This document shows positions 14,916 to 58,720 of a stretch of DNA of 64,000 nt, in pieces. Within the stretch, counting starts at the first letter, position 1, and each line of letters starts with the position of its first letter. Both the position numbers and the translations under genes were made by a program. The stretch spans positions 148,486,397 to 148,550,396 of the forward strand of contig NC_084800.1 in assembly GCF_963169125.1 (NCBI RefSeq), in the 5' to 3' direction. This stretch comes from Humulus lupulus (lineage: Eukaryota > Streptophyta > Magnoliopsida > Rosales > Cannabaceae). The notes below the pieces were generated by a model. It ran no database searches. It had not been told where the DNA came from and was given only the letters and a program-made list of their open reading frames with translations.

Positions 14916-14920
14916 CAACG

Positions 14921-17042: not shown

Positions 17043-17047
17043 CAACG

Positions 17048-21681: not shown

Positions 21682-21693
21682 GCTCTGATACCA
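21682..21693 (-). other. Element 1 primer-binding site
   Basis: The minus strand reads TGGTATCAGAGC three bases after the end of the 5' LTR. This is the classical complement to the 3' end of initiator methionine tRNA. Confidence 0.9.
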
Positions 21694-21696
21694 AGT

Positions 21697-26329: not shown

Positions 26330-26334
26330 ATATC

Positions 26335-26910: not shown

Positions 26911-26958
26911 ATTCTCCCATACTAAAAAGAATTACGTCCTCGAAATTTACTTACCAAA

Positions 26959-28441: not shown

Positions 28442-28863
28442 CTCCTGCTACAATGGCTTTTCTACTCCGGCTAGTGATGCTAAACTTCCATAATTTTCCT
28501 ACTTAGCGCATCGCCAACTACATTTGCCTTTCCCGTGTGGTATAGGATTTCGCAGTCATAATCTTTTACTAGCTCTAACCACCTGCGCTGCCTCATGTTG
28601 AGCTCCCTCTAAGTAAAGAAGTACTTTAAACTTTTGTAGTCAGTATAAATCTCGCATTGTTCTCCGTAAAGATAATGGCACCAGATTTTTAATGCAAAGA
28701 TCACTGCTGCCAACTCCATATCATGAGTTGTATAGCATTGCTCGTACTCCTTCAACTACCTTGAGGTGTAGGCTATCACCTTGTCATTCTGCATCAGCAC
28801 GCAACCTAACCCTTGTTTTGACGCATCACAGTAGACTACAAACTTATCGTTGGGTGTCAGTAC
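28442..28863 (-). pseudogene. Element 2 RNase H
   Basis: The minus strand shows the expected CDAS...GLGCVLMQND stretch, then LKEYEQCY and [12 protein letters not shown], then SLKYFFT and [12 protein letters not shown]. At least two stops (near 28,755 and 28,610) and a degraded ADALSR end (near 28,500) break it. Confidence 0.75.
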
Positions 28864-29911: not shown

Positions 29912-29953
29912 CCTTTGAGCTTTCAGAGATGATATTAGCGGTGTGCGTAATCC

Positions 29954-30481
29954 TTAAACTTGTCCCATGAAGCATAGTCCCTGGTCGTCAGGAGTCTCGA
30001 ACGTCACTTTCTTGTATTTGCAGATGATGGTCGCGCCATGCCGTGCTAGCCAGTCCATGCCTAGTGTCACGTCAAAGTCTTTGATCTCCAGTTCTATCAT
30101 GTCTCCTTCTAGTTCTACGTCCTCAATCTTGATCGGTACATCTCGTACTATCCGTGATGATAGAACTACTTTGCCCGAAGGCAACTCGGTTACAAACCTG
30201 GTTCTAAATCTTTCACAAGGTTTGTCTAGTTTTTCTATCATTCCTAATGAGATATACGAATGAGTGGCTCCCAAATCAAATAATACAGAACATATATTAT
30301 TGAGGAGAGAAACCTGACATGTGACCACCTTATTGCTAGTATCAGCTTTTCCTTGGGTTAAGGAAAATACCCTTGCAAGAACCATCTTGTCTTCCTTTTT
30401 CCCTTCTGGCTTGTGCTGAGGACATTCTTTCTTTCGGTCTCCTTCTTGACCAAAGTTGTAACATCCCTTGGTGTTTTCCAT
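29954..30481 (-). pseudogene. Element 2 zinc knuckle end and aspartic protease
   Basis: The frame begins MENTKGCYNFGQEGDRKKEC, the second half of the gag zinc-binding region, and continues to the protease SVLFDLGATHSYISLG and DFDVTLGMDWLARHGATIIC. The active site reads DLGA instead of DSGA. Solo LTR B lies immediately upstream on this strand and separates it from the rest of gag. Confidence 0.83.
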
Positions 30482-30500
30482 ACATTCACCAGGATGTTTT

Positions 30501-34525: not shown

Positions 34526-34537
34526 GCTCTGATACCA
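34526..34537 (-). other. Element 2 primer-binding site
   Basis: The minus strand reads TGGTATCAGAGC, complementary to initiator methionine tRNA, a few bases after the TGTAATGACCC LTR end at 34,540. Confidence 0.88.
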
Positions 34538-34539
34538 AC

Positions 34540-34650
34540 TGTAATGACCCAACTAATTCTAGACTTTGGACCATTAATAACTACTATACATAGACACTAA
34601 TCTTAAGAAAACATACATGAAAGCTAAATAGTTGATGATAATCCTTACAA
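34540..34650 (-). repeat. Element 2 5' LTR remnant
   Basis: The first 65 bp or so match the 3' LTR end at 11,374 (ACCCAACTAATT, then ACCATTAATA, then CTACTATACATA). Similarity then fades and CACTA-like sequence takes over by about 34,740, so the 5' LTR is truncated. Confidence 0.6.
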
Positions 34651-37317: not shown

Positions 37318-38214
37318 TACCAATCGGTTCACCCTTTTTGTTAGAATGTCCAAAAAACCACAACTGTGACTGTCGACTTCAGACACCTCAAGTCTAATAT
37401 TTTGTTGCTACAGTCTTTCCCTACCAACAAATACCTACCTCATGACATGTGGATATTGATGTATTTTTCTTTTTTTTTTCTTCCAATCATCGATCATACG
37501 TGAAGCACAAAACTCATCCCACTTTTTTTTAGTGATGAGCTGTGAGTAACATTTTGAATGTCTTGATGGTCGAATTTTCATTGATAATTCTACACAATAG
37601 AGCTATTTTACCACATTTTATATGCTAATTGTTGCTTAATTCTTGAGGTTTTAATTGATTTATAAAGTTTTAAAGTAATTTTTAATTTAGGTTTATTTTA
37701 ATTTTATAGATTTGTGTGCACTTTTATAGTTCTATTGTTGTAAAATATTTTAGTATAGTTATTTGAATTAATTTTGTTTAGTTTGAGGTCAAAAAAATCA
37801 TGTTTTATTGAACTTAAATGCTAAATTAAATGAAGTTATAATTAATATTTTCACAGAATTAACATGATTTATTTATACTAATGTTTTTTATTATGACTTA
37901 ATATATGTTTATTTTGTAGGAAATTGTTGTATTGTTGGTGCTTGAAAAGCTAAGAAAAATAAAGAAAATAATATGGCAAAATTGAAAAGAAAAGAGCTAA
38001 AAGTAAGTCCACATACTTTCTGCCTCCACCTAGGCCCGATCCCAGCAGCCACCTGGGCCCGTTCCTAGCCCACGGGCCTGCCTGCCCACCATTCAGCCCA
38101 AAGCCCAGCAGCCTTCTCCAAGCAGAAGACCTCCACGGCCCAACACAAAGCCCAGGCCTGAAACCAAAGGTCCACACGCTTGAACCCAGACCCACGCCAC
38201 TAGCCAGCAGTTGC
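37318..38214. other. AT-rich stretch and GC-rich spacer, probable retroelement DNA
   Basis: The first 200 bp may continue the CACTA remnant. The rest is T/A-rich up to about 37,980, followed by a GCCCA-rich patch (38,020-38,230) typical of large LTRs. No gene is seen; the minus-strand 102-codon frame here is low-complexity. Confidence 0.4.
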
Positions 38215-38785
38215 CTCTCACTCCAAGCCCGCTTGCCTTCATTTGGGCCCGCCAGCATTAGTTTTTCTCCTTAGCTAGCCCATGGCCCAAGCCTCCCAAA
38301 CATGCTGCCAAGACCAACAAAATTGGGAGCAATTTTTCTTGAGCCCAATAATATCCCTTTGTCCCCAATATCTAAAAATGATATTTTTTTACCCAACTTT
38401 TCTACACATTTTACAACAAAATTCATCACCACAACCTAAAATTTACCCTTACTTACCTTATTACTCTATTTAAAAATTAATTTGATTAATTTAAATTGAT
38501 TATTTTAAACATTTTATTTTGGCTATAAATAAGGGATTTGAAGACCATTTTTGGGGTGGACGTGACACTACACAATTTCTACACTTTCAAGACCACTCTA
38601 TTCTCTTCATCATCTTCTTCTTTTTGGTCATTTTTCTATGAGTTTTTAGAGGAAAAATTTGAGGGTTCCTCCTCAAAAATTTTCTATTTATGTTTGTAAT
38701 TTTTTATTTATAATTTATATTATGGTTATGAGTTTCTAATCTTTTTAAGATTATTAAGGTGATGATGAAACAATATGAAACAGGT
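38215..38785 (+). repeat. LTR-like direct repeat, copy 1
   Basis: This segment and 44,495-45,045 are about 90% alike by eye and in the same orientation. Both include TTTGGCTATAAATAAGGGATT in copy 1 (CTATCAATAAGGG in copy 2), followed by GAAGACCATTTTTGGGG and CACTTTCAAGACCACTCTATT. The TATAAATA box and the following pyrimidine-rich stretch look like the promoter part of an LTR. The repeat ends abruptly at the integrase fragment. Confidence 0.65.
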
Positions 38786-39651
38786 GTTGAGGAAAACCCT
38801 TCGAAGTACAGCGATGCCCCCTTCGCTTCCTCAAGTCTTTTCTTCAGAGTATCCTTTGGCATTTAATTGACTACTTCGACTTGTCTGTTTGTTTGAGGAT
38901 GAGCGACTGAAGAAAAGCCCTTGATAATTCCATGCCACTTGCAAAAATCTGTGAACAAATCACTATCAAACTGGGTGTCGTTTTCTAAGACAATTTTTCG
39001 TGGCAATCCATAGCGACACACAATGTTTTTGACTATGAAATCTAGCACTTTCTTGGTTGTTATGGTTGCGAGTGGCTCAGCTTTGGCCCATTTAGTGAAG
39101 TATACTTGACCCCGCCCTTTCCTGTGGGCAGAGATCCGATTAGATCTATAACCCAGACTGCGAATGGCCACGGACTTAGCATCTGTTTTAGCTCATTAGG
39201 GTCTGCTTGTGGAATTTTGGAGAACCTTTTGCATTTGTCACACCTCCGTACAAATTCCATCGAGTCTTCATTCATTGTTTGCCAGAAGTATCCTTGCCTT
39301 AGGATATTTTTTGATAAACTTTGCCCCCTAGCATGGTCCCCACAAAAGCCTTTGTGGACCTCTCTCATTAATTCTTTGGCTTTCTCTTTCGAAATACACC
39401 TGAGGAGTGGCACCTGAGGAGTGGCATTGAGTATCCCCTTCGATACAAGATTCCATCGACTAGGATATACCTAGCAGCCTACCACTGAAGGGTCCTGGCT
39501 TTGTTTCTGTCCATCGGCAACACGCCCTGTGTCAAGTACTCTATGTAAGGTGCCATCCATGTGTCCGCCGCCTGAATCACCAAAGAGGTCTCTTCTTCTC
39601 AGATGCTCGGTGTAGATAGCCATTCAACCGACACTATGTTTAGAGTGTCAG
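38786..39651 (-). pseudogene. Ty3/gypsy (Tat-like) integrase fragment
   Basis: The zinc-binding part reads VHKGFCGDHARGQSLSKNIL, then RQGYFWQTMNEDSMEF, then RRCDKCKRFSKI. The catalytic part reads FTKWAKAEPLATITTKK, then LPRKIVLENDTQFDSDLF and HPQTNRQVEVVN. The two are in different frames, shifted near 39,110. N replaces the usual D just before DTQF, and N/R replace DG before the catalytic glutamate region. No RT adjoins it. It abuts a truncated LTR of another family at 39,652. Confidence 0.8.
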
Positions 39652-40757
39652 TGTAACGACCCAAAATTACTAATAAGGCTTAAGGGCCTTGATTAGTGTG
39701 CCGGGAGGGCATAATTGGAGGTTAAGAGAATTGATGGTAAGAAAGTGTGAATATCGGTATTGAATAAGTATGCGGGCCCTGTTTGGCTGGTAAGGCATAA
39801 TGGTAATCTTGGCCCGTTAGGGCATAAATGTGAATGTGGGTGATAAATTGCTGAGACCACATTATTATGTGGATGGTTGGATAAATATATGTGCGTGTGC
39901 AGGTGTGTGCGTTTGTAATTAGTGGCACGAGGCGATCCTAGGGAGCAGGTAGCGGGGAAAGTCACAACGGGGCTTAATAGTTGACTTTGGATAAGTCAGG
40001 GATATTATAGGTATCGCGTAATTATTTAGACTATCGGGTTATGGAAATAAATACAGGACATATATTTGAGGTTAGGAAGTTTATGCGGGAACATTGGGGA
40101 ATTTTACCATTTTGCCCTCGGGGACGTTTCCGGCACCCCGAGGCTCGGGATTGACTTAACGGGATAAAGGATAGACTTAGTTAAAATAGAAGCTAGTGGA
40201 AAGAAATATTAGACCGACTCTTATTCTCCTTCCCTTCTCTCTTTCAAGAAAACTAAGAAAAACACAAGGAAACAGAGGAAATTTGGAGGATTTAGGTTGG
40301 GATTTCAGAGGATTTCAGTGGGGATTTAAAAGCTTAGCTCAAGGGTTATCCAAGGAACATTTAATCAAAGCCAAGGTGAGAATCAAACTGTGTTTTTGAG
40401 GTTAGAAACTCTGAGTTTTCTGAGTAGTAAGATAATTGTAATTTGATGTTTAAGGTTGAATTGAAGCTAGAAACCTGGGAACTAGCTGGGATTCTGCTTA
40501 GAGAAGGGGTTTAGCTCAAAAGTTAAACTTTAATTTATGATTTAGAAGTTTAAATCTGAGTTTTGAATGGTTGGTTATGGTGTTTGATGTTCTTGAGTTT
40601 CAGAGATTGAAACATGGATTGCAATGAGTTTTAGATTGGGTTTCCTGTTGAATTATGATGTTAAAGTTGTCTGAAAAGTGTTGGGAATGATTGATATTGA
40701 AGTAGGGAGCTTTGAGGAACCAGAACTGCACCCACCTCCCGGAACGAGCGTTCCGCG
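39652..40757 (+). mobile_element. Truncated LTR, TGTAACGACCC family
   Basis: Starts TGTAACGACCCAAAATTAC and follows the plan of the 14,921 solo LTR in the same orientation. It stops at 40,757, in the middle of the LTR plan, just after its GC-rich cassette (GGAACGAGCGTTCC, 40,741-40,754). The rest of the LTR and whatever followed have been deleted or replaced by the minus-strand gag-like gene. Confidence 0.75.
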
Positions 40758-40853
40758 ATGAGAGAGGCCTGCAAGGAAAGACAACAGAATGAGTTAAGCA
40801 GAACCAAATGTACTAAGACAAATGATCCCAGAACACAACAACTGACAGCTTAC

Positions 40854-43499
40854 CCCAGAAAGTTGCTGCTTTACGGCATGTGTCAGCAACAGCGGGTCCT
40901 TACTGCTACTGATGGCCCATTTCTCATAATTGAGCTCGCACAAGCTCAGGGCCATGTCCTCCATCATCTCCGCTCCGAACGGCGCCAATGCACGTCCGAG
41001 CCTAGGCATCAGCCTCTTCTCCAAGGCTGGGCCATCCAAAACCGCTCCAGCCGGGTGAAGGGATCTCACCCCTTCTGCCAGCTCAGCTCTCTTCACGGCA
41101 GACAGGTTGTCTGCCCTTCCCTGAATAACAGCCTTCTCGGCCTCCAACCGCCTCCTCAAAAAATTATCAGCCCGTCTTACACCCTCCAGGAGGGCAGCGG
41201 GGAAACGGGTTGGTTTCTGAGGGAAGTAGAACTTCAGGCCAGGCTGAGGAAGGCTTGTTTGTTGAGAAAGTGGAAGAGAAGGAGAAGAAGGAGACCCCGA
41301 AAGGGTGGACTCCCTTTGGACTGGAGGAGGAGGTAGACGGGGTATTAGGGACGGTAGCGAAGACACTACCGCCCCGGTTTGTTGTTGCTGCCGATGTTGC
41401 TGTTGTTTTTGCTGCTGCTGTGGCGGTGTTGGTTGTCTTTGTTGTTGTTGTTTTTGTTGTTGTTGTTGTTGTTGTTGCTTTTGCTGTTGGGGTTGTGGTT
41501 GCCGCTGGGTGGGGGTAGTCTGGCGGGGACTGCGCGCAGCCTGGAGGTCTCCATCACCTCCGGGAGAAGAATGTCTAAGGCGTTTCTTCTTGTCGCCCTC
41601 AGCCTCTCCTCCGGGGCGCTTGCTCACCCCGGTCATCTTCGCGGGGAACACAAGACCTTCCCCCTCGCTGCTACTACTCGATACCACCATGGTCTCGGAA
41701 GGCCCCTTGACAGGAGGCCTCTCCACCACCGGAGACACTTGCGCCTCGCCACTTGTCTTCTTAGGTGTGGCAGCTTTACCTCCCCTACCAGCTCTGGCCT
41801 TTCGTCCTTTCCCCTTGGACGGGTCTTGGCTAGTGGCGGCCTTCTTGAAAAGTGTGGTAGCTCTCCCCAACATCTTTGCTTCGGGATGTTCTGCAAGAAA
41901 TGTACGAAGCAAGGTTAACCAACCAGCAAGTGATGTGAAAAAAGATAAGCAGAAAACAAAACAAGCAACAACATAAAAGCACAAACAAGTCCACCAGCAG
42001 GGAACAAGAAACAAACAAGAGAAAAGTTTGAAAGGGACGACCATGCACGAGAAACGTGGATGGCCTTCCCCGAGCAAAACAAGACACCGCTTCCTGCTCC
42101 AGGAAGCTCCCATACTCTTCGAAGTCCGGGAATAACATGCTGAGGGAAGAAGGGTCAACCATGGTGACACCTTCTGGCAGACTACCGTCACTCAAACACC
42201 CGAGGAGCTCATCTACCCTATCGCAATATCTGTCAAAGGGTATCCTACGCGGATCTAGCCTAAGGAAGCGGGGATCGAACCCTATCTGAGAAGTCCGGGA
42301 AACCTCAGACAGGCTGGGGGTGTGGATCAATCGAAAGCTAGTCTTACCTTTCCCGGAGGTACCGGCTCCCGGAGTCGCTTCATTGGGGTAAGCTGCGGCG
42401 TGGCAAGCCTCGATTTCTTCTTCCTCCGACTGGGGGTCGGGGAACCTCTCTGCCCAACTGAGGGATAAATTATTCTCGTCCTGGGCCGCCTGGCAGATCA
42501 CCTTGGACAGCTTCAGGGCAATCTGCTCCCGGACGTCAGCTGACACCTGACTTTGCCCCCTGCCACTCACTGGCTCAATATTTTGGAAAGAGGCGAGTAG
42601 CCCATACTCCCTCAAAGATTCGATGGTCACAATTCCTTCCACCTTCAGCTCTTCCTCCGAGAGCCCCTCGTAGAAGTTTGACCTCCTTATCATCTCCGCA
42701 CAGCGAGGTGTCCGCGGGACGGCTTCTGCAAAATCCAAACATGAGTGTTAGAGATCCTCCCGGAAGGCAAACCAAACGTGAAGAAACAAAGTTAGAAAAG
42801 AAAGGAAGGAGCTCTTACCAGGGACATTGAAGTCCAAAGACAGAGCTGGCACCCTCTTCAATGGGAAGCCAGTCGTCAGGAACAAGTACTCCCGGAGATC
42901 TGGAACCCTCGCGGTATGACATGTGGGACACATCACGTCCGGATACCTCTCCAGCCTATAAAACCCCACCTTGTCTGCATGACCTCTCATGGGCTGAGAC
43001 TTCAGCCCATAGAAGTATAGCACCTCCTCCGGGGTAGGGGCCTCCAGGTCCCGGGACTTGCAAAAGATATACCACCCCGCTAGAAGCTTGTAGCTGGGGG
43101 GAATCAACTGGAAGGGGGCAATCCCCGCCTTCACGCAGAAGTTGGCAAAATAACTTCTTAGGGGCAAGTGTGCCCCACACACTATGTGTGCCCAGCTCCA
43201 GGCACCAAAACCCTCGAGACTCTGGCTGGCAGACTCACCCAGCACCGACAGACGGTGCCACATCAAGCCTGGGATGTTCTTCAGGCATGCCTTTGAAGAA
43301 TACAGCTCCAGCATGCCGTAGTTCCTGAACAGGTTCGGCTTCTGGTCCATCTCCCAGATGGAACTGTTGATAGTCGGTGGGCTAGCCGCGGCCACCTTAG
43401 TTTTTGCTTTCTCCTTTGCGCCGGCAACAGGGGAACCTTGCTCCTGGGCAGATTCAGCCTCTACCGCAGCGATGATTTGTTCCTTTGAGGTGTTCGTCA
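40854..43499 (-). pseudogene. Retroelement gag-like gene, putative gypsy-type transposon domain
   Basis: Three exons are visible. Exon 42,819-43,499 (CAG/GTAAG borders) reads LPLRSYFANFCVKAGIAPFQ, then PPSYKLLAGWYIFCKSRD and LREYLFLTTGFPLKRVPAL, the pattern of the putative gypsy-type transposon domain (PF04195). Exon about 42,042-42,725 has EMIRRSNFYEGLSEEELKVE. Exon 40,854-41,890 is basic at first, then has a long glutamine tract (41,365-41,520) and a helical end (NFLRRRLEAEKAVIQGRADN). Such genes occupy the gag position of some large Ty3/gypsy elements. The 3' part is lost at 40,757. Frames are open within exons, so decay is modest. Confidence 0.6.
41365..41520 (-). repeat. CAG/CAA tract encoding polyglutamine
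   Basis: A trinucleotide-rich tract encodes mostly Q with scattered K, R, H and P within the gag-like gene. Antisense it gives cysteine-, leucine- or valine-rich frames which are artefacts. Confidence 0.85.
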
Positions 43500-44494
43500 C
43501 TGAGCAAAAGAAACAAAGAAGAAAACACTCCAAGCAGTCAGCACCCTTGTCATACCCTAACGGTATTAAAGGCGTCGGGGAGACCCTCCCCGAAAACTGC
43601 TTGGAGAGGCTCCCACCGAGCTTGCCGAGGGGTTGGCACCATGCCACCCGGAGGACAGCAAGGAACCAGATTCAAACTTCGAGCCTAAGCCCGCCGAGAG
43701 AAGTGTTTTCCCAGGGGAAGACACCCTAAAGGCGTTCACGCTTATGCCCTAAAATAACAAACCAGAACAGCACAAGCAGACGAGAAACAACTTTCCAAAA
43801 GCAAATCGTCAAAGCATGCAAAGAAATGACTTATTGACTCACATCAGTCACATGCCTATCAAAGCCCTATTCACGCATGCATAAAGATGACACTGGCAGA
43901 AAACTCAACCCTAACAACTACCAACAATCTGAGGTTTAGAAGGAAAAAGCAAAGTAAAAATACTTACTGGTGTTCGGGTAGTTGAAGATTGAGGGAGTAA
44001 CCGGGTCACTGCACCGCACGAACACGTGAAGTAAAGGCTTCAAAGACAAGCAACGATTCAAACCTAGAACTTCGGCGAACAAACCTACTGCCAAATCGAA
44101 ATAAAAGTTTATGGATTCCTTACCAAAAGAAGTGGCGAATTCGAAGGAAAGGAAGCTTGGAAGCTTGAGAGTTCGAAGATTTGGGAATCTGAGAATCTGA
44201 AAGCTCAAGAATTTGAAAGCGTAAAGAGGAAGAAGGGTCCGTTCCTTCGTTTTTATAGCAGGAACGAAGTCATTTCGAATTCCACAAATGGACGGTCCCG
44301 ATCTTCCCATACCGCATGCATCAGATCCGACGGCTGGGGATGAAGTGCCGGTCCCATTTATGACTCCTCGGATGGGAATAAAGTATTTATTTCCCATCAT
44401 TGTACCATCTTGGGCCCGGTGTACCATTAAATGCCATCAAATCACTACTCAGACGCCTGACGCACGCATACTCAGCCAGTCGCCTCACGCACAC
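43500..44494. other. 5' region of the gag-like gene
   Basis: On the minus strand a 163-codon frame (43,936-44,427) contains no known motif. It lies where the first exon and promoter of the gag-like gene would be. A TATA-like element is not obvious. The region joins the LTR-like direct repeat at about 44,495. Confidence 0.35.
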
Positions 44495-45045
44495 CTCTTA
44501 GTCCCAGGCCCGCCTGCCTCCATTTGGGCCCAGCAACATCAATTTTTCTCCTTAGCCAGCCCATGGCCCAAGCCTCCCAAACTTGTTGCCAAACCCAACA
44601 GAATTTGGAGTAATTTTTCTTGAGCCCAACAATGTCCCATTGTCCCGCAATGCCTAAAAATGTGATTTTAGACAACTTTTCTACACATTTTACTACAAAA
44701 TTCATCATTACAACCTAAAATTTACCCCTACTTACATTACTACTCCATTTAAAAATTAATTTAAAAATTATTTTAATCATTTTATTTTGGCTATCAATAA
44801 GGGATTTGAAGACCATTTTTGGGGAGGAGGTCACACTACACAATTGCTACACTTTCAAGACCACTCTATTCTCTTCATCTTTTTTTCTTCTTTTTGGCCA
44901 TTTTTCTATGAGTTTTTAGAGGAAGAATTTGGGGGTTGCTCCTCCAATTTTCCTATTTATGTTTGTAATTTCGATTCTAGTTATGAGTTTCTAATCTTTT
45001 TAAGATTATTAAGGTGCTGATGAAATAATATGTAACTAGATAGTA
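44495..45045 (+). repeat. LTR-like direct repeat, copy 2
   Basis: Partner of 38,215-38,785 with the same order of motifs, ending TTTTTAAGATTATTAAGGTG, then CTGATGAAATAATATG. The two copies bracket the integrase fragment, truncated LTR and gag-like gene, so they could be the two damaged LTRs of one composite element. Confidence 0.65.
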
Positions 45046-46245: not shown

Positions 46246-47738
46246 AATATAATAACTTGTTCTTAAAAAGAATATCTAATTTGAATAGGTGATAGTTTGA
46301 TTAATTTCTACTATTAATAAAACTTGAGAATCCATGTACTTATAGATATTATTAAGCTTATATTTTGTCGATTCTATTATCTTGATAATCTTTGTCTTAC
46401 AGCTTGTTTAACAATTATTAATTTAGTTCTATATATTGTCTTTAATTTCTTTATTATTGCATTTATTATTATCTTTTATTTTATTTTCTTGATACGAAAA
46501 TCTCATAAATGTTTGGAGCTATGTTAGATTTTATTAATTTTTGTTTAAAATAGTTCTCTTTTTTATTTTAGACAACTCCTTTGGGTTTCACTTCCTTGCT
46601 TATACCATCACTATTCTATATGAAAGATTTGTGTGCTTGCGATATAAATATTTAAAACATACTTTAGTCTGATAGGATTTGAATGCTCTCTATCCTCTTT
46701 CTACATTTTACATGATTTTTCTTTTTCCTTTATAGTCCATGTCAAACGTAGACTACAATTGAAAACAATACATATCATTATTCTATATTAAAAATACAAA
46801 AAAAATATATATTATAGTGATACTACTACAATATGTTGAACCAATGACACATTTTAATGTCTTGCAACATAGGTGCATGACATTAAAAAGCTGAGGAAGC
46901 TTATAATGTCTTCCCTTGTAAGACATTAAAGTCCGTCACAAATAGTGGATAAGTGCTGGAGTTTTCAAATTTATTTTTAAATATTAAAATAAATATAGAA
47001 GTAACGTCTCTCATTAAGAGACTTTAAATGCTTATAATGCTCCTCATTGGAAGACATTAAACAAGTGTAGCGTCTCCCAACAAGGGACATTACATATAGT
47101 CCAAATTTAAAGTGGGCGCCTTTTTCCCCCATAGGCGGGTGATTGAAAAAATTTGGGAAATTTATCAAAACAAAATTATTAAAGTTAATAATATAAAAAA
47201 GGAAGAAAAGTGAAACCATCGACTAATCTCTTGCCTAACCTCTATACTTTCTTGCCTCTCTACCTCTCTCAGGTTCGACTACTCACTTTGTTGAAGAATT
47301 TTTTTGGTTTTTTATCTAACCATTATGATCTTTGGTTTGTTTTATTATGGAATATGACTTTTTTTATTTGAGCACATCGATTCTTGATTTAACGTTTTGG
47401 GCTTCGTCTTATTGTGCATATGCTCTATTGAGTTTTGACCTCACGGTAACTCCTATAGTGCGAAAGAATGGCCTTTAGCATGTAATTTATGCATTTTCCA
47501 TTTAATATTTTCAGTTTTACTGGTTTCTTTCTACTCACCATATTTAGCTTTTTGTTTGTAGGGATTTGAAATGGGAGCATTGCATTGGAATTGTTAATGC
47601 TTGAGGTGTATTTTGAATAAGAACTTATCTTGCTCTGTTTTGCCTCTTTGAACGTCTCTATTTGGCTTTCTTTATAAGATTGAGTTAGTTGTAAAATGCA
47701 TTAGCCGAAGAAGAAGTCTTCCCTAAAAACCCCTCTCA
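46246..47738. other. Intergenic stretch with inverted ACATT/AATGT motifs
   Basis: AT-rich and without a gene. From about 46,850 to 47,100 short motifs (AATGTCTT, GACATTAAA, GTCTC...GAGAC) recur in both orientations, like the subterminal repeats of DNA transposons. A GC-richer patch follows (47,115-47,150). The left pararetrovirus copy starts at 47,739. Confidence 0.45.
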
Positions 47739-48679
47739 GCTCCCTAAAAAAGATCTCACCTGCAGAGGCCGTCTTGAATTGGCAAACGGAGAACATGCTA
47801 GCTCAAAACAAAACTCTAGCACAGATCGATGAAAAACTCTCTCACGTAAGCCATAAGGTGACCAAACTCAGTGACGAAATCTCAAGGGTCGACACAACTA
47901 TGAGCAAACTAGTCTACAGAATCTCGGAGGTACACGAAGAGCTACTGACAATGGCAAAATCCCAACATGCTCCACATGACATCTTTCGGGCTAAAGAAGC
48001 AGAACTTAAAAGTCTAAAAAGCCAATATGTCGCTATGCAAAGTCACCAAAAAGAAGTCTCTCTATCCCCAGGCGTTAGTCCCACACCATGGATGTTTTCA
48101 ACAATGCCACAACATTCCCAACCACTAGCAATGCCTACAAAAAGAGGTGATCAAATACTTCGCCTCAAAAGAATCCTTGAAGAGGAAGACCAACTAAAGA
48201 AACAACAAAAAGAAAAGCAAGTAGACGACGGTCAGACAAAACACCAGCTCATGGTCCAAAAGACAAATCGCCTTACTGAGCTAATCCATCAACATTGCTT
48301 AGACAGTCTCCCGCAAATTAATCTTAACGAAGAACTCGATGGCTCAAGCGACGATACACAATCTTCCTCCCCTGACAAATCTGAATTATGGGAGACCGAC
48401 GATGATGACAGTAGTGACGAAGCCCCACATCAATTCATGACACACCACACCCAAGATTCGGGGGTCGAAAGAGAAATAGGGTTTCCTCCAATAGAGCCAA
48501 TCATAGAAGAGGAGGCGTCATCCTCAGAAGAAAAAAACACCACCAGGCACAACTTTGTGACAAGCGGAAAACCTCATACCTTCACGTTAGATGATTTACC
48601 ACCAAGTCAATGGAGGTCTCGCTTTAAGAATTCAAAGTCTGGACCTTGCTCGAAGCCCAAAAGCCCAGGGCAGAAATAA
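47739..48679 (+). pseudogene. Pararetrovirus ORF1, 3' part (coiled coil and acidic region)
   Basis: The frame is open from the copy boundary to a TAA at 48,677-48,679. It starts with a heptad-rich coiled coil (LAQIDEKLSHVSHKVTKLSD, then EISRVDTTMSKLVYRISE), followed by a second charged helix and a serine/aspartate/glutamate-rich acidic stretch. It ends with a basic tail (RSRFKNSKSG, then KPKSPGQK). Coiled-coil regions of this kind occur in virion-associated or polyprotein linker parts of caulimovirids. The movement protein that normally precedes it is missing in this copy. The end overlaps ORF2 by about 50 nt in another frame. Confidence 0.75.
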
Positions 48680-51600
48680 GAGACATCCTTCTGCAACTTG
48701 TATCAAGGTTCACTGGAATACTGCAAGACTGGTGGCAATGTCTAGGAGAATACAGACAACTTCAATTCCACCAAGCAGAATCAATTGAAATAGCTCTAAA
48801 CCACCTCTATGTCGAATTTTGTGGGCAAGATGCCCAGGTAATCGAGAGACTCCGAGCAGAATTCTTCAAAATGAAGTGCTGCTCAATGGATAAGAATGAC
48901 TTGGAGCTACATTATCAAAGAATGTCCAAAAGATTCTACCTAATTGGGGGAGTAGATGATCCGAACCTAAAGCAAGCCTTCTTGGCGTCCATCCCAGAAC
49001 CACTTGGCGAAGAGACATTCAGACTCCTCTCAGCAAATGGCAGAACATTACAGAACACAACTCTTGGTGAGCTATTCCAGACAATAATGAGAGCACTAGA
49101 AAAAATGTGCTCCTTGAATAAATTCCTACAGGAATACATGAAGCAAACGAAACAGTTCGATAAGGTGTGCAGTCCAAGAGATCTAACAATCAAATGCTCA
49201 ACTAAGTCATCTTGTTCCTGCGAAACGCCAAGCTATGGTGGGAAGAGACACAAAAGCAAGTCATTCAAACCAAGGACTCCAAGGAAATTTCTCCGAAGGA
49301 AAAACAAACCAGGCAAGTCTTCTAATAGATGTTTCTTGTGCGGACAGAATGGGCACTTTGCCAAGCAATGTCCAAAAGGAAAAACGGCGAAGATGATATC
49401 ACACATCCAGGATGTAACAGGAGTATCCCTCTTAGACGATGATGTAGAATCCGTGTTCTCTATAGAAGATGAAATCTCCCCGTATACTGTCTGTGCATTA
49501 CGACCATTCTCCCACTCAGATGAGGATAGTGCAAGGGGCATCTTCAAAATGAATGCCATAAATTCTGTTCAACCCATCCCTATGGCAAAAATGCAAATCA
49601 TCCCAACAAAATACTCCAAGCCAATCAAGGTGGCTGCCTTCTTTGATACTGGCGCCTCCTACACCATCATGAATCCTGATATTCTACCACCCGAATTTTG
49701 GAAGAAAAAGAAGCAGTACTTCCACGCAGCAAATAACCAAATTTTCTGCACGGAACTAATCAGCAGGCCCATCAAGCTGCAATTTTTTCCAGGCTGCTCA
49801 ATCATCCACAGGGTCATCGGCTCCAAACTTCCGGGAAAGGATTTAATTATAGGTTTCGACCTCTACACGAAGAAAAAAGGTCTGAGAATACTTCCACAGG
49901 GGTTGGCGTACAAGAAATACTTCACTCCATGGGAGCAGGTTCCGAATTACTTCCACATGACTGAAGATTGTCTGACATCACTCAAAGAGCGCATTATCCA
50001 AAAATCATGTGCTACTTCCCATATGGAGTTCTCAAATAAATGCGACCACCCACTATGGAAAAATGAGGAATTCTTCATTTCTCTCCCCTTTAAGATGAAT
50101 GAAGATGCAAACCCAACTAAAGCAAGTCATCCGGGAATGAGCCCCGATCATCAAAGCCTGGCAAACAAGGAATGCGAAGAGCTAAAAGCACAAGGATTAA
50201 TCGAAGAAACTGAATCTCCATGGGCCTGCCATGCATTCTACGTCAACAACAGATCAAAACAAACCCGAGGCAAGCAACGACTAGTAATAAACTACCAACC
50301 GCTCAACCACTTCCTAACAGATGACAAGTTTCCTCTGCCAAACAGAAATTCCTTGTTCTCCAGCCTATCACAAGCAAAGGTATTTTCCAAATTTGACCTA
50401 AAAGTAGGTTTTTGGCAACTAGGAGTCAAAAAAGAGGACAGGCCGAAAACTGCATTCTGTATCCCAAACCATCATTTCCAATGGACTGTAATGCCATTCG
50501 GGCTCAAAGCAGCCCCATCCCTCTTCCAAAAAGCCATGAGCAAGATATACAAGCCCATCTTAAACCAGGTCCTCATCTACATAGACGATATCCTCCTTTT
50601 TTCCCCTGATATAAAATCCCATACCAATCTTCTAACCCAATTTGCTAGTATCACTGAAAAGTATGGAATAATGTTATCAAAAAAGAAGATGGTGTTGGGC
50701 CAGCCCAAAATCGAATTCCTAGGGATGAAATTGCACAATGGCACATACGAAGCCAACCCTCACATAGCCCAGGAACTCCACAAATTTCCAAATGAAGGCC
50801 TCACAAAGACCCAAGTACAACAGTTCCTAGCGATCGTGAACTACCTCAGAGACTTCGTGCCCCACCTGTCCGGTTTCACAAGCCCATTAACCAAGATGCT
50901 TCAAAAAGATTCTCCACCTTGGGGAAAAGAACAGACAGAAGCGGTAAAAACCCTCAAAGAGTTAATGAAAGATTTACCACCACTTCAGATTCCATCAGAC
51001 GGAAAAAGAATCCTGCAGACTGACGCAAGCGACAAGAATTGGGGGGCGGTCCTATTAGAGGAAGACACCAACAACAAAAGAAAGGTGTGCGGGTACAAGA
51101 GCGGAGCATTCAAAGATTCCCAACTCCACTACCACTCTACTCTGAAAGAAATCTTGGCGGTCAAAATGGGAATAATGAAGTTTGAATTCCACCTCATCGC
51201 TCATAATTTCTTGGTCGAAACAGATTTCTCATCCTTTGAAGGAATGCTCACATTCAAGCAAAACAAAGCTGTCAATGCCCAATCACTCCGATTAGCCACG
51301 TGGTTCTCTTGTTACACCTTTCAAGTCAAGCACATCAAAGGAAAATCAAACACCATCCCAGATTTCCTTTCAAGGCCAAACTGGAGTACTATAAATATAA
51401 TCTCCCCAGAAACTAATCAACCCATCCCTCTAGTTTTCATGGCAAACCCTGCAGCAATCATCCCTACATTTCCAAAAGATGCCCAAAAGGTTATCAACCA
51501 CAAAACCCCAAAAATAAAGGCCATGAAAAATGCTTTAGATATCCAGTCTACCCTTGTTAGAGGTCATGGAAAATCAATGGCAAAAGAGTTAGGCTTCCAT

Positions 51601-52410
51601 CCAAAGTACCCATTTGCCAAACTCTTTCACATGGAGAATACCATTTTTATGCCAAAAAAGATTACCCACATGTTCTGGTACTTAATGAGCTCCTACACTA
51701 TTGCTATTGAGGTTCACACCATAGGACTCCGAACATCATTTCGTAGCTACATGCAAAGGCCTGACCTCCGTCCAGCATACCAACATCCTATGGATCTATT
51801 GCAATGGTTCAAACCTTTATCTGATTGGAATGATCTGCTCACCCAACAATGGGAAAAGGTCCGCAACAAAAGGCCAGTTGGTTTATCTTATCCAGCTGAT
51901 GAAAACGTGGCAAATCCAACAAAGTGCTACACCATTCTGTTACTAAAGCTAAATGTCAACCATGATCTGACATTTACACCAAATGTTCAAATATACAGAT
52001 CCAGCGAATATCCAATGGTTGTCATCGGAAACCCTGAACACCGACAGCTGGAAAAACTTCTGTTTAGCACAAATGGCATCATTCCTGATGAAATGTGGCC
52101 ACGACCAGAAGACGACGCAACTTGGGAACAGTATCCAGCAGATTACTCACTAAGGATGGAAAAGGATATGGATTATTACAATCAACATTACGCTGAATAT
52201 GAAATTGATTATAATGATTCAATCTTCCAAGACTCACAACAACCAGATACCCTGTGCTCATCTCCAATAACGACTTCATTAAGAGAACTTGATGAAGAAA
52301 TAATGAGGGGATTATCAATCAAGAAAAGACCAACACGTGGAGAACCAAGTATGTCTGATGGAGATGGCAGTGATGACACATGCATGAGTCCTGATCCAAG
52401 TCATAAATAG
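48628..52410 (+). CDS. Pararetrovirus ORF2: coat/zinc knuckle, protease, RT, RNase H
   Basis: The frame is open for over 1,250 codons to a TAG at 52,408-52,410. Counting from TTG 48,646, it has a coat-like helical region (1-190), a CCHC knuckle CFLCGQNGHFAKQC (229-242), the protease site FFDTGASYT (about 333), RT with PKTAFCIPNHHFQWTVMPFG and the box YIDDILLF (about 645), RNase H starting LQTDASDKNWG (about 787), and a C-terminal extension of about 340 residues with no domain I recognise. There is no ATG before codon 75. The frame opens right after a TAA at 48,625, inside ORF1, one base back from its frame. Expression would need frameshifting or fusion. No stop interrupts the catalytic domains. 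Confidence 0.88.
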   Translation, partial: EFKVWTLLEAQKPRAEIRDILLQLVSRFTGILQDWWQCLGEYRQLQFHQAESIEIALNHLYVEFCGQDAQVIERLRAEFFKMKCCSMDKNDLELHYQRMSKRFYLIGGVDDPNLKQAFLASIPEPLGEETFRLLSANGRTLQNTTLGELFQTIMRALEKMCSLNKFLQEYMKQTKQFDKVCSPRDLTIKCSTKSSCSCETPSYGGKRHKSKSFKPRTPRKFLRRKNKPGKSSNRCFLCGQNGHFAKQCPKGKTAKMISHIQDVTGVSLLDDDVESVFSIEDEISPYTVCALRPFSHSDEDSARGIFKMNAINSVQPIPMAKMQIIPTKYSKPIKVAAFFDTGASYTIMNPDILPPEFWKKKKQYFHAANNQIFCTELISRPIKLQFFPGCSIIHRVIGSKLPGKDLIIGFDLYTKKKGLRILPQGLAYKKYFTPWEQVPNYFHMTEDCLTSLKERIIQKSCATSHMEFSNKCDHPLWKNEEFFISLPFKMNEDANPTKASHPGMSPDHQSLANKECEELKAQGLIEETESPWACHAFYVNNRSKQTRGKQRLVINYQPLNHFLTDDKFPLPNRNSLFSSLSQAKVFSKFDLKVGFWQLGVKKEDRPKTAFCIPNHHFQWTVMPFGLKAAPSLFQKAMSKIYKPILNQVLIYIDDILLFSPDIKSHTNLLTQFASITEKYGIMLSKKKMVLGQPKIEFLGMKLHNGTYEANPHIAQELHKFPNEGLTKTQVQQFLAIVNYLRDFVPHLSGFTSPLTKMLQKDSPPWGKEQTEAVKTLKELMKDLPPLQIPSDGKRILQTDASDKNWGAVLLEEDTNNKRKVCGYKSGAFKDSQLHYHSTLKEILAVKMGIMKFEFHLIAHNFLVETDFSSFEGMLTFKQNKAVNAQSLRLATWFSCYTFQVKHIKGKSNTIPDFLSRPNWSTINIISPETNQPIPLVFMANPAAIIPTFPKDAQKVINHKTPKIKAMKNALDIQSTLVRGHGKSMAKELGFHPKYPFAKLFHMENTIFMPKKITHMFWYLMSSYTIAIEVHTIGLRTSFRSYMQRPDLRPAYQHPMDLLQWFKPLSDWNDLLTQQWEKVRNKRPVGLSYPADENVANPTKCYTILLLKLNVNHDLTFTPNVQIYRSSEYPMVVIGNPEHRQLEKLLFSTNGIIPDEMWPRPEDDATWEQYPADYSLRMEKDMDYYNQHYAEYEIDYNDSIFQDSQQPDTLCSSPITTSLRELDEEIMRGLSIKKRPTRGEPSMSDGDGSDDTCMSPDPSHK

Positions 52411-55400
52411 ACCCATGTGACCTCTGAGAAGATTCTCCCACCCATGTGATGCACCCAGCTATGCTGACTAGATTCGCCTAGGTAATAACGTTTTTTCATA
52501 AAGACTACACTGAAATTTGCAGACTCCCTGAAGACATCAGAGCTAAACAGAAGTTTTTCCAGCTGTCGGTATTCAGGGTTTCCGATGACAACCATTGGAT
52601 ATTCGCTGAATCTGTATATTTGAACATTTGGTGTAAATGTCAGATCATGGTTGACATTTAGCTTTAGTAACAAAATGGTGTAGCACTTTGTTGGATTTGC
52701 CACGTTTTCATCAGCTGGATAAGATAAACCAACTGGCCTTTTGTTGCGGACCTTTTCCCATTGTTGGGTGAGCAGATCATTCCAATCAGATAAAGGTTTG
52801 AACCATTGTAATAGATCCATAGGATGTTGGTATGCTGGACGGAGGTCAGGCCTTTGCATGTAGCTACGAACTGATGTTCGGAGTCCTATGATGTGAACCT
52901 CAATAGCAATAGTGTAGGAGCTCATTAAGTACCAGAACATGTGGGTAATCTTTTTTGGCATAAAAATGGTATTCTCCATGTGAAAGAGTTTCGCAAATGG
53001 GTACTTTGGATGGAAGCCTAACTCTTTTCCCATTGATATTCCATGACCTCTAACAAGGGTAGACTGGATATCTAAAGCATTTTGGATGGCCTTTATTTTT
53101 GGGGTTTTGTGGTTGATAACCTTTTGGGCATCTTTTGGAAATGTAGAGATGATTGCTGCAGGGTTTGCCACGAAAACTAGAGGGATGGGTTGATTAGTTT
53201 CTGGGGAGATTATATTTATAGTACTCCAGTTTGGCCTTGAAAGGAAATCTGGGATGGTGTTTGATTTTCCTTTGATGTGCTTGACTTGAAAGGTGTAACA
53301 AGAGAACCACGTGGCTAATCGGAGTGATTGGGCATTGACAGCTTTGTTTTGCTTGAATGTGAGCATTCCTTCAAAGGATGAGAAATCTGTTTCGACCAAG
53401 AAATTATGAGCGATGAGGTGGAATTCAAACTTCATTATTCCCATTTTGACCGCCAAGATTTCTTTCAGAGTAGAGTGGTAGTGGAGTTGGGAATCTTTGA
53501 ATGCTCCGCTTTTGTACCCGCACACCTTTCTTTTGTTGTTGGTGTCTTCCTCTAATAGGACCGCCCCCCAATTCTTGTCGCTTGCGTCAGTCTGCAGGAT
53601 TCTTTTTCCGTCTGATGGAATCTGAAGTGGTGGTAAATCTTTCATTAACTCTTTGAGGGTTTTTACCGCTTCTGTCTGTTCTTTTCCCCAAGGTGGAGAA
53701 TCTTTTTGAAGCATCTTGGTTAATGGGCTTGTGAAACCGGACAGGTGGGGCACGAAGTCTCTGAGGTAGTTCACGATCCCTAGGAACTGTTGGACTTGGG
53801 TCTTTGTGAGGCCTTCATTTGGAAATTTGTGGAGTTCCTGGGCTATGTGAGGTTGGGCTTCGTATGTGCCATTGTGTAATTTCATCCCTAGGAATTCGAT
53901 TTTGGGCTGGCTCAACACCATCTTCTTTTCTGATAACATTATTCCATACTTTTTAGTGATACCAGCAAATTGGGTTAGAAGATTGGTATGGGATTTTATA
54001 TCAAGGGAAAAAAGGAGGATATCGTCTATGTAGATGAGGACCTGGTTTAAGATGGGCTTGTATATCTTGCTCATGGCTTTTTGGAAGAGGGATGGGCCTG
54101 TTTTGAGCCCGAATGGAATTACAGTCCATTGGAAATGATGGTTTGGGATACAGAATGCAGTTTTCGGCCTGTCCTCTTTTTTGACTCCTAGTTGCCAAAA
54201 ACCTACTTTTAGGTCAAATTTGGAAAATACCTTTGCTTGTGATAGGCTGGAGAATAAGGAATTTCTGTTTGGCAGAGGAAACTTGTCATCTGTTAGGAAG
54301 TGGTTGAGCGGTTGGTAGTTTATTACTAGTCGTTGCTTGCCTCGGGCTTGTTCTGATCTATTGTTGACGTAGAATGCATGGCAGGCCCATGGAGATTCAG
54401 TTTCTTCGATTAATCCTTGTGCTTTTAGCTCTTCGCATTCCTTGTTTGCCAGGCTTTGATGATCAGGGCTCATTCCCGGATGAGTTGCTTTAGTTGGGTT
54501 TGCATCTTCATTCATCTTAAAGGGGAGAGAAATGAAGAATTCCTCATTTTTCCATAGTGGGTGGTCGCATTTATTTGAGAACTCCATATGGGAAGTAGCA
54601 CATGATTTTTGGATAATGCGCTCTTTGAGTGATGTCAGACAACCTTCAGTCATGTGGAAGTAATTCAGAACCTGCTCCCATGGAGTGAAGTATTGCTTGT
54701 ACGCCAACCCCTGTGGAAGTAATCTCAGACCTTTTTTCTTCGTGTAGAGATCGAAACCTATAATTAAATCCTTTCCCGGAAGTTTGGAGCCGATGACCCT
54801 GTGGATGATTGAGCAGCCTGGAAAAAATTGCAGCTTGATGGGCCTGCTGATTAGTTCCGTGCAGAAAATTTGGTTATTTGCTGCGTGGAAGTACTGCTTC
54901 TTTTTCTTCCAAAATTCTGGTGGTAGAATATCAGAATTCATGATGGTGTAGGAGGCTCCAGTATCAAAGAAGGCAGCCACCTTGATTGGCTTGGAGTATT
55001 TTGTTGGGATGATTTGCATTTTTTCCATAGGGATGGGTTGAACAGAATTTATGGCATTCATTTTGAAGATGCCCCTTGCACTATCCTCATTTGAGTGGGA
55101 GAATGGTCGTAATGCACAGACAGTATACGGGGAGATTTCATCTTCTATAGAGAACACGGATTCTACATCATCGTCTGAGAGGGATACTCCTTTTACATCT
55201 TGGATGTGTGATATCATCTTCGCCGTTTTGCCTTTTGGACATTTCTTGGCAAAGTGCCCTTTCTGTCCGCACAAGAAACATCTATTAGAAGACTTGCCTG
55301 GTTTGTTTTTCCTTCGGAGAAATTTCCTTGGAGTCCTTGGTTTAAATGACTTGCTTTTGTATCTCTTCCCACCATAGCTTGGCCTTTCGTAGGAACAAGA

Positions 55401-55991
55401 TGACTTAGTTGAGCATTTGATTGTTAGATCTCTTGGACTGCACACCTTATCGAACTGTTTCGTTTGCTTCATGTATTCCTGTAGGAATTTATTCAAGGAG
55501 CACATTTTTTCTAGTGCTCTCATTATTGTCTAGAATAGCTCACCAAGAGTTGTGTTCTGTAATGTTCTGCCATTTGCTGAGAGGAGTCTGAACATCTCTT
55601 CGCCAAGTGGTTCTGGGATGGACGCCAAGAAGGCTTGCTTTAGGTTCGGATCATCTACTCCCCCAATTAGGTAGACTCTTTTGGACATTCTTTGATAATG
55701 TAGCTCCAAGTCATTCTTATCCATTGAGCAGCACTTCATTTTGAAGAATTCTGCTCGGAGTCTCTCGATTACCTGGGCATCTTGCCCACAAAATTCGACA
55801 TAGAGGTGGTTTAGAGCTGTTTCAATTGATTCTGCTTGGTGGAATTGAAGTTTCCTGTATTCTCCTAGACATTGCCACCAGTCTTGCAGTATTCCAGTGA
55901 ACCTTGATACAAGCTGCAGAAGGATGTCTCTTATTTCTGCCCTGGGCTTTTGGGCTTCGAGCAAGGTCCAGACTTTGAATTCTTAAAGCGA
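52401..55991 (-). pseudogene. Pararetrovirus ORF2, copy 2, interrupted and truncated
   Basis: Same domain order as copy 1: coat-like region (55,533-55,964), CCHC knuckle (CFLCGQKGHFAKKC), protease FFDTGASYT, RT with YIDDILLF, RNase H, and the first part of the C-terminal extension. A TAG at 55,530-55,532 replaces a glutamine codon found in copy 1 and splits the frame into 144 and 1,040 codons. Similarity stops at 52,543, and the last 45 residues are read from the opposite strand of copy 1's end. Roughly 35 residues differ from copy 1 over about 1,000, many of them explained by G-to-A or C-to-T changes. Confidence 0.88.
52411..52542 (+). other. Centre of the viral inverted repeat
   Basis: This is the short non-coding piece after the copy 1 stop codon, up to the junction with copy 2 at 52,543. 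On the minus strand the copy 2 frame reads into it and stops at 52,401, giving a foreign tail of about 45 residues. No clear polyadenylation signal is seen. Confidence 0.7.
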
Positions 55992-58374
55992 GACCTCCAT
56001 TGACTTGGTGGTAAATCATCTAACGTGAAGGTATGAGGTTTTCCGCTTGTCACAAAGTTGTGCCTGGTGGTGTTTTGTTCTTCTGAGGATGACGCCTCCT
56101 CTTCTATGATTGGCTCTATTGGAGGAAACCCTGTTTCTCTTTCGACCCCCGAATCTTGGGTGTGGTGTGTCATGAATTGATGTGGGGCTTCGTCACTACT
56201 GTCGTCATCGTCGGTCTCCCATAATTCAGATTTGTCAGGGGAGGAATATTGTGTATCGTCGCTTGAGCCATCGAGTTCTTCTTTAAGATTAATTTGCGGG
56301 AGACTGTCTAAGCAATGTTGATGGATTGGCTCAGTAAGGCGATTTGTCTTTTGGACCATGAGCTGGTGTTTTGTCTGACCTTCGTCTACTTGCTTTTCTT
56401 TTTGTTGTTTCTTTATTTGGTCTTCCTCTTCAAGGATTCTTTTGAGGCGAAGTATTTGATCACCTCTTTTTGTAGGCATTGCTAGTGGTTGGGAATGTTG
56501 TGGCATTGTTGAAAACATCCATGGTGTGGGACTAACGCCTGGGGATAGAGAGACTTCTTTTTGGTGACTTTGCATAGCGACATATTGGCTTTTAGACTTT
56601 TAAGTTCTGCTTCTTTAGCCCGAAAGATGTCATGTGGAGCATGCTGGGATTTTTCCATTGTCAATAGCTCTTCGTGTGCCTCCGAGATTCTGTTGACTAG
56701 TCTGCTCATAGTTGTGTCGACCCTTGAGATTTCGTCACTGAGTTTGGTCACCTTATGGCTTACGTGAGAGAGTTTTTCATCGATCTGTGCTAGAGTTTTG
56801 TTTTGAGCTAGCATGTTCTCCGTTTGCCAATTCAAGATGGCCTCTGCAGGTGAGATCTTTTTTAGGGAGCCATCAGGTTCTCGAACTTTAGGATTTGTGA
56901 TCTTTGGTTGGTGAGTTGTTGTACCATCGTCATCAGTAAATGTAGTAGGTAGTGGAAAATCGCGTTTGTGGGCATTTATCATGAGGTGGTGAGCGACTTC
57001 TTGGTTGGGTCTTTTCTGCCTGTAACATGGTAGGATCTTCTCTTGTTTTGGGGAGGTTTTTTGGTGGTCGTCGTCTTCATCCCATCCGGTAGGTGGGGGA
57101 AGGGGTGAGGATGGTGGGTCGAAGGAGTAGTTGACTAAGTAATCAAATTTTCCAGAAGGTTGCCCAAGGGGAGCAATATTCGGGTGCCCTGTTGCCCACT
57201 TTTCTTTTAAGACTTTGCCAGCACTAGGCTTCTTGCGGATTCTTTCCAGGTCATCGATGTTAATGCAATCCGAGCAGTTGCAAACGTCCCAATAAATATG
57301 ACCGGAGGATGACTTGTAGGCATAAATGGGGACCCCATTTTTGTCGAACGAGGTGATTTCTGCATCTGTCGGGATGACGGAGGACATCATGTACTGAGTA
57401 GAGAACACCGGAGGAGCATCGTCCTTCTTTTGAAAGTTAATTTCAATAGACCCATCCTTATTTGTAGAGTATGATGGATCTGCCGAATGGATTGTAGGAG
57501 GTGGTCGGTGGATTCTTTCATAATTGGTTATCCATGACGTCGGAAGGATATTTTGTAGTTCTTTTGTAGTGATTTTCCTCGGTATGTGGGTGCAGCTTTG
57601 CTGTTGATTTATGTCAACAGTGATCATTAGTGCGTCTGAGCTTCCCGGAAGTGCGATGTCAATGGCATCGTTTTGGACTCGGTAAGCCATTTGGTAGTGT
57701 AGTGTAGCGCCGATAGATTCAGGATCTTGGTCTAAACCCACTATTTGCAGTTGAACCTTTAGAGCGTCGAGAAGTCTTTTATCTTTCAAGGACATGCAGA
57801 AGTTTGGGTAGAAAGTGACAATTACTGTACCCGCATTAAGTGTTGTTTCAAGAGTACCGATGGAGGCATGTTGAAACCTTCGCATTCGTGTATCCAGCAA
57901 GGTGATCCTAGCACAAACCGGTAAGCCTTTCCATCCATGATGGGTGAGGGCGAGGCGAATAGCCCCAAAGTGGATGTGTGTCAGCCCTTGGTCTATCCAT
58001 TGTTGAGGGAATTCCGGCGGGATCTCTAAGGTAACGAGTTGTTCCTGTTTGGTGGCAGGGAGGTTACATTGGTCAAACTTTGTTGATTGGATGTATTCTT
58101 TTACTGACTTTGGTTGTTGGCGAATGAGTGTTTTTATGGATCGAGTGAGAATGCCTTGTGGTTTTGAGAAGGCATGGTAAGGATTTATGAGAGGTAGGTC
58201 GGAAGGAACGCTCTTATCATCATCGGAGATGTAAGAGAGTTCATACATATAGGAAAGTTTATTGGCTGAAGACTTTTTGAGGGACGGAGTGCCAGAAGAG
58301 GCCATAGAGACAGGAGTAGAAAACATGGAGAGCTGAGATGTTGAGGAGGTAGGATTTTGAGGAAGGAGAGACAT
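55931..58374 (-). pseudogene. Pararetrovirus ORF1: movement protein and coiled coil
   Basis: The first ATG is at 58,374 (MSLLPQNPTSS); the frame is open further upstream into the leader but without ATG. Residues of about 70-275 from that ATG have the 30K-type movement protein look of caulimovirids (ARITLLDTRMRRFQHASIG, then GTVIVTFYPNFCMSL), which lets virus pass through plasmodesmata. The coiled coil follows, as in copy 1. Near 56,590-56,593 this copy has one A fewer than copy 1 in an A run (T run on the plus strand), which throws the frame off. The original frame resumes as 55,931-56,575 and overlaps ORF2 as in copy 1. Confidence 0.82.
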
Positions 58375-58426
58375 GTGTGAGAGGTTGGGGTTTCTCTTTA
58401 GAAGGAGCTGAGAGGAGTCGACCTGG

Positions 58427-58438
58427 GCTCTGATACAA
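58427..58438 (-). other. Pararetrovirus primer-binding-like site
   Basis: The minus strand reads TTGTATCAGAGC, 11 of 12 bases identical to the initiator tRNA-Met complement TGGTATCAGAGC used by caulimovirids. It lies about 53 bp upstream of the first ORF1 ATG, in the place expected for minus-strand DNA priming. Confidence 0.75.
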
Positions 58439-58439
58439 T

Positions 58440-58720
58440 TAGTAACCAAATTCCACCATGAGGAGAGACAGTTAAGAATAGTATCATGGTAACAACACCA
58501 TGATACTATGCCCAGGTATCCTAGCCTGTTAGAGCTGGTTTAGGCAGACCATTAGTGGTCACTCATTAGGCTTCGAATCATGGTGGTATCACTAATGGTT
58601 GGATCTGTAATGGCAGGTCATGGTAACTAATGAGTGTTCAGAGGTGTATCTATATAAACTGTCTCTTTAGAAGGAGAGACAGTTTGGTAGTTTGTATTTG
58701 ATTCCTAATGAAAATAAAAT
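58440..58720 (-). promoter_or_regulatory. Pararetrovirus leader/intergenic region
   Basis: The region upstream of the primer site is full of inverted repeats: a 13-bp stem with a 6-base loop (58,478-58,509), ACCATTAGTG/CACTAATGGT (58,548-58,557 and 58,590-58,599), ACTCATTAG/CTAATGAGT (58,561-58,569 and 58,627-58,635), and a 10-bp stem around 58,657-58,686. A TATA-like TTTATATAGA occurs on the minus strand at about 58,649-58,658. Caulimovirid leaders are typically highly structured, so this fits. The plus strand also has TATATAAA here, so promoter direction is not settled. Confidence 0.5.

Follow-up and report, generated by a model that had tools for sequence, protein, structure and literature searches.

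In tomato, rearranged endogenous caulimovirids lying as inverted repeats form the transcriptionally competent siRNA areas (TSAs; Valli et al.), which are reported to give rise to 22-nt DCL2-type siRNA and to bring about the degradation of matching transcripts (PMC10377300). The same review describes caulimovirid- or TE-derived inverted repeats in soybean with DCL2-dependent 22-nt siRNA, and eBSGFV-7 of Musa balbisiana, an endogenous pararetrovirus that is replication-competent and has some segments twice, in opposing orientations (PMC10377300). A second source reports an endogenous CMV RNA1 repeat of soybean, made of a 3.4-kb sequence with a 0.5-kb spacer of plant origin and producing mainly 22-nt siRNA, and states that several endogenous caulimovirids studied yield mainly 24-nt siRNA (PMC6256188). 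EPRV-derived, DCL2-dependent RNAs of 22 nt have also been described in tomato hybrids (PMC9124383), and petuviruses are characterized by a single large polyprotein ORF (PMC9719215). A literature search for endogenous caulimovirids in Humulus or Cannabis found nothing but an editorial; most subscription papers were outside its reach, so that absence is unproven.

The window analysed here is the whole stretch of 64,000 nucleotides from hop, Humulus lupulus (NC_084800.1, positions 148,486,397 to 148,550,396, forward strand). When the whole window was compared with itself by BLAST, the longest of the inverted matches listed paired 47,739-52,081 with 56,870-52,529 at 98.1% identity over 4,343 columns (E = 0), and the inverted pair was also recovered by a separate repeat search. 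Because the last five differences of the BLAST extension are packed into ten positions past 52,068, we place the end of true homology at 52,068 and 52,542, and a reading of the arm ends themselves agrees with this. The layout is as follows.

47,739-52,068, plus strand: arm 1, which is copy 1, a 5'-truncated caulimovirid fragment (the end of a movement-protein/coiled-coil ORF followed by the zinc knuckle, RT and RNase H regions; Pfam zf-CCHC, RVT_1, RT_RNaseH), 98.2% identical to arm 2
52,069-52,541, plus strand: centre of 473 bp, comprising the C-terminus of the copy 1 polyprotein to the stop at 52,410 (from the ORF 48,646-52,410 and aligned relatives) and, after it, about 130 bp that are either viral 3' sequence or junction
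52,542-56,870, minus strand: arm 2, the portion of copy 2 common to copy 1 by self-comparison (Pfam zf-CCHC, RVP, RVT_1, RT_RNaseH)

The initial annotation had proposed a tail-to-tail inverted pair with arms of about 4.33 kb around a centre of 473 bp, and both the arrangement and these sizes are borne out. The alignment of the arms that it called for shows 76 substitutions in 4,328 paired positions (98.2% identity), evenly spread along the arms (chi-square 7.4 over 10 bins), with a longest perfect stretch of 339 bp. Its estimate by eye of 96-97% identity at the protein level is close to the measured 95.5% (573 of 600 residues in three coat-to-RT pieces). As far as the assembly is trustworthy, the inverted pararetrovirus pair is real. 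The viral block extends further right, through the 5' part of copy 2 that is absent from copy 1, to about 58,660, a limit estimated from composition.

Judged by anatomy, the locus fits the known inverted-repeat pararetrovirus kind. It shares with the tomato TSAs the rearranged endogenous caulimovirid copies and a long inverted repeat of caulimovirid sequence, and is hairpin-capable as they are. Such a repeat is one mark of a TSA-type siRNA locus, beside transcription across it and DCL2-dependent 22-nt siRNA from its arms. The hop locus differs in that 22-nt siRNA and target degradation are reported for tomato, whereas hop, a member of another host family, offers DNA anatomy alone. The details that make the hop locus informative are its viral centre and a frameshift common to both copies.

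Scanning ten pieces with Pfam identified a movement protein (PF01107), zinc knuckle (PF00098), retropepsin (PF00077), RT (PF00078) and RNase H (PF17917/PF17919), all in one virus; none of these pieces matched an integrase family at E <= 0.01. A tRNA-Met primer site near the genome start and the lack of an integrase are features of Caulimoviridae, and the hop element shows both, its primer-site-like sequence lying at 58,438. Among solved structures, the RT profile matched 8r0s best ('Enzymatic polyprotein', 6.7e-88), which we take to be a caulimovirus RT; 4ol8 and Ty3-G 7q5b ranked behind it (about 1e-60). With the RT piece, 1,243 proteins from many different plant genomes passed, the best among the 120 listed being LOC133795762 of Humulus lupulus itself (P0001; 94% over 77% of the piece); relatives of the movement protein include proteins of Cannabis (P0121, 68% over 91%) and Parasponia. 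The pararetrovirus identity first read from the open reading frames is thus upheld by the viral domains and by the relatives in plant genomes. The accompanying statement that the stem covers coat, protease, RT and RNase H holds in both copies for zinc knuckle, RT and RNase H. Pfam recovered the protease from copy 2 alone, but its miss in copy 1 is uninformative because the border between two query pieces cuts the protease region there.

On these sequence features, the element is an endogenous caulimovirid. Because the structure model was poor (mean pLDDT just 57.5), we used the fold search for its printed sequence identities only; the closest viral entry of the structure library is 58% identical and unnamed, and named plant pararetroviruses lie at 23-37% among the 50 matches listed. 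The caulimovirid is possibly petuvirus-like, a tentative placing at the level of genus. PVCV carries movement protein, zinc knuckle, protease, RT and RNase H in that order. PVCV and the endogenous petuvirus-like elements resemble the hop element in domain order, and relatives run on as one frame at the joint that was tested; both hop copies differ in being truncated and frameshifted, and their nearest viral entry has no name.

The two copies are truncated at different ends. Copy 1 begins within the viral genome, close to the end of the movement-protein/coiled-coil ORF, so that it is devoid of the viral 5' part, and reaches the natural ORF end at 52,410, past RNase H. Copy 2 has no viral 3' end, being cut at the inverted junction. 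The features of the two copies are as follows.

47,732-47,743, plus strand: 12 nt at the left edge of copy 1 that match the viral leader (58,415), with 5 nt of shared sequence
47,774-48,679, plus strand: coiled-coil part at the end of ORF A in copy 1
48,628-48,679, plus strand: overlap of frames A and B, the frameshift region common to both copies
48,646-52,410, plus strand: copy 1 ORF B, 1,254 open codons encoding coat zinc knuckle, RT, RNase H and a C-terminal tail (ORF call and Pfam)
52,401-55,964, minus strand: copy 2 coat-protease-RT-RNase H frame with one in-frame stop, continuing beyond the junction into the antisense of the copy 1 3' part
56,482-58,449, minus strand: copy 2 ORF for movement protein (PF01107, E 8.2e-15) and coiled coil, of which only the end is present in copy 1

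The 12-nt match at the left edge of copy 1, which has a chance probability of about 3.5e-4 and was spotted post hoc, may mark an internal-deletion junction. At the other end, the C-terminus of the copy 1 polyprotein fills the opening 342 bp of the centre; the alignments of relatives from Hibiscus (P0119) and Ficus (P0254) extend into the centre, which therefore opens as copy 1's own C-terminus. From its sequence the centre is not a neutral spacer and starts as viral coding sequence. The soybean CMV repeat has a spacer of comparable size and viral arms of the same order of length, but its spacer is of plant origin and its virus an RNA virus, whereas the hop centre begins with those 342 bp of viral coding sequence.

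The junction between frames A and B bears on the history of the arms. The sequence 48,625-48,679 is identical to 55,931-55,985 of copy 2. Of 265 relatives, 59 have an alignment that takes in the beginning of ORF B. Among these 59, 43 read through the break, with the ORF A-end motif directly upstream in the same frame; seven begin at or after the site and nine are without the read-through motif. Some of the 59 are gene models that could conceal introns, but Cannabis, elm and fig all show the same joint. The comparison bears on this one joint rather than on a whole petuvirus-type ORF. Since the break region is identical in both arms and most of these relatives read through it, both arms carry a common frameshift. 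We gave little weight to a programmed -1 frameshift from ORF A into ORF B, since the overlap has a single slippery heptamer and this is out of phase; an in-phase slippery heptamer lies upstream, ahead of the opening of frame B. Beyond the common frameshift, copy 2 carries one more frameshift and one in-frame stop. The locus shares with eBSGFV-7 the oppositely oriented duplicated segments of an endogenous pararetrovirus; unlike eBSGFV-7, described as replication-competent, it is broken in both copies.

The differences between the arms within ORF B (n = 61, counted on copy 1 codons) comprise 18 synonymous changes, compared with 15.6 +/- 3.4 expected without selection, and one stop, compared with 2.5 expected. 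Polarizing 42 amino-acid changes against 16 relatives chosen from the 265 assigned 10 derived changes to copy 1 and 19 to copy 2, with three ambiguous and 10 without data. The arm differences thus look compatible with neutral drift after function was lost. Gene conversion keeping the arms alike was also considered, and neither the even spread of the differences nor the 339-bp longest perfect stretch gives any sign of it. Taken together, the common frameshift and the neutral-looking differences indicate that the arms derive from one already broken source and then drifted. Two already defective viral DNA fragments from that source would have been joined tail to tail at chromosomal entry or soon after, and the arms would since have drifted neutrally by about 1.8%, for which the arm comparison suggests about 1.3 to 4.4 My at assumed substitution rates. 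We consider this account of identity, structure and history, namely an endogenous caulimovirid cluster of two defective fragments of one broken source, joined tail to tail and neutrally drifted, to be probable.

Whether such a locus could produce a hairpin depends on its capacity for pairing and on where a transcript might begin. The 5' region retained by copy 2 contains three features.

58,427-58,438, minus strand: tRNA-Met primer-binding-site-like TTGTATCAGAGC, with one mismatch to the tRNA-Met primer-site motif TGGTATCAGAGC
58,426-58,660, minus strand: structured leader that lies upstream of the primer site in copy 2 (MFE -72 kcal/mol, z -4.8; none of 200 shuffles reached this stability)
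58,650-58,656, minus strand: TATA-like box TATATAG, candidate viral promoter by consensus match

Around TATATAG at 58,656 the G+C content drops from 0.45 to 0.30 in 200-bp bins, so the candidate promoter is a consensus match adjoining AT-rich DNA. As to pairing, 68% of the 22-nt windows in the arms are perfectly paired, the mismatches of about 1.8% disrupting a third of them, and a 631-nt segment spanning the centre plus about 80 nt of each arm has a folding energy of -242.8 kcal/mol, where 20 shuffles average -139 (z = -19.4). The initial annotation had expected transcription from either side to give a long hairpin. The pairing potential is there, but 'either side' calls for a proviso: the candidate viral promoter is retained on the right side only, and with the viral 5' region gone from copy 1, left-side transcription would need a host promoter.

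If a Pol II transcript crosses the centre, it would most plausibly be one that starts in the retained viral 5' region of copy 2 and reads through into antisense copy 1, a read-through favoured by the loss of the 3' end of copy 2. Folded back on itself, such a transcript would make a hairpin about 4.3 kb long, the type of substrate from which tomato and soybean produce DCL2-dependent 22-nt siRNA. Six AATAAA hexamers lie on the minus strand inside copy 2, and a right-side transcript could therefore end short of the centre; five more, on the plus strand inside the block, could likewise cut transcripts short. That the hairpin is self-driven, the viral promoter that only copy 2 has driving a transcript through the 3'-deleted copy 2 into antisense copy 1, seems to us distinctly doubtful. 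If true, it would make a defective virus its own silencing trigger with no host promoter involved and with a loop that is largely viral coding sequence. A silencing role for the locus is possible.

Other origins for the structure were weighed against the joining of two fragments. A local inverted duplication of one integrated copy, by fold-back or breakage repair, would account for the common frameshift and the 98.2% identity of the arms, but each copy has viral sequence that is missing from the other (the 5' part in copy 2, the 3' part in copy 1), and the self-BLAST matches listed at E <= 1e-10 include no mirrored host flank. Moreover, the other hop copy, P0001, agrees with the two arms at 528 and 526 of 562 residues, a closeness little short of that between the arms themselves (573 of 600), and direct local duplication is therefore not favoured; we regard it as rather unlikely. 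The arms seem instead to be two members of a single family. Inverted repeats are easily misassembled and the locus is known from the assembly alone, so that a fold-back chimera or a wrong join of two copies has to be considered; a chimera of this kind would give nearly identical arms, yet the arms have different ends and flanks, and their 76 evenly spread differences include derived changes on both sides. An artefact is highly improbable.

Accepting two drifted fragments of one broken source, the question becomes what, if anything, they do. An inert, rearranged viral fossil, in which the inverted pair was joined by chance, is transcriptionally silent and gives nothing beyond ordinary 24-nt heterochromatic siRNA, departs from our preferred explanation solely in the hairpin step. 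It agrees with the neutral-compatible, evenly spread arm differences, which bear no sign of conversion or selection, and with the mainly 24-nt siRNA that several endogenous caulimovirids are reported to yield (PMC6256188); activity is made plausible, against it, through the tomato and soybean precedent alone. We give inertness about an even chance. The locus might, at the other extreme, be a natural antiviral hairpin whose arm siRNA silences related episomal or endogenous virus, as its long, near-perfect stem from coat to RNase H would allow and as the ability of tomato loci of this type to have matching transcripts degraded (PMC10377300) would suggest. Nothing indicates that the arms have been kept alike, however, and one IMG/VR scan with the RT piece, which reaches close relatives only, confirmed no relative. 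To our knowledge there is no live cognate virus, and we judge an antiviral function to be very unlikely.

If the locus is transcribed, inverted-repeat pararetrovirus siRNA loci would extend from tomato and soybean to the hop/Cannabis family. The common frameshift has a meaning of its own, in that the source of both copies would already have been broken, a point relevant to the way in which defective endogenous viral DNA is multiplied or co-integrated.

The rest of the window consists in part of other repeats. A search for host genes in the flanks found no Pfam family at E <= 0.01 in the 10 of 29 stop-to-stop ORFs scanned, Rfam gave no match at gathering thresholds, and ARAGORN found no tRNA. 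A Ty3/Gypsy-like element occupies 12,193-24,070, with 2.4-kb direct repeats (12,193-14,612 and 21,693-24,070; 93.9%), integrase and gag pieces between them, a sequence at 21,693 (minus strand) that matches the tRNA-Met primer site exactly, and an inverted partial repeat copy inside at 16,267-17,042. It is followed at 24,484-32,346 by a second element, in which a 1.85-kb direct repeat pair (93.4%) encloses protease, RT and integrase pieces. Direct repeats of about 0.55 kb (84%) at 38,214-45,036 flank ORFs at 40,797-43,647 that gave no Pfam family above the cut-off and only a weak TFIIA match. A further exact tRNA-Met primer-site match, at 34,526-34,537 on the minus strand, adjoins a 54-bp match between 34,539-34,592 and 11,373-11,426, and a G+C-rich tandem array with a 35-bp unit lies at 956-1,225.
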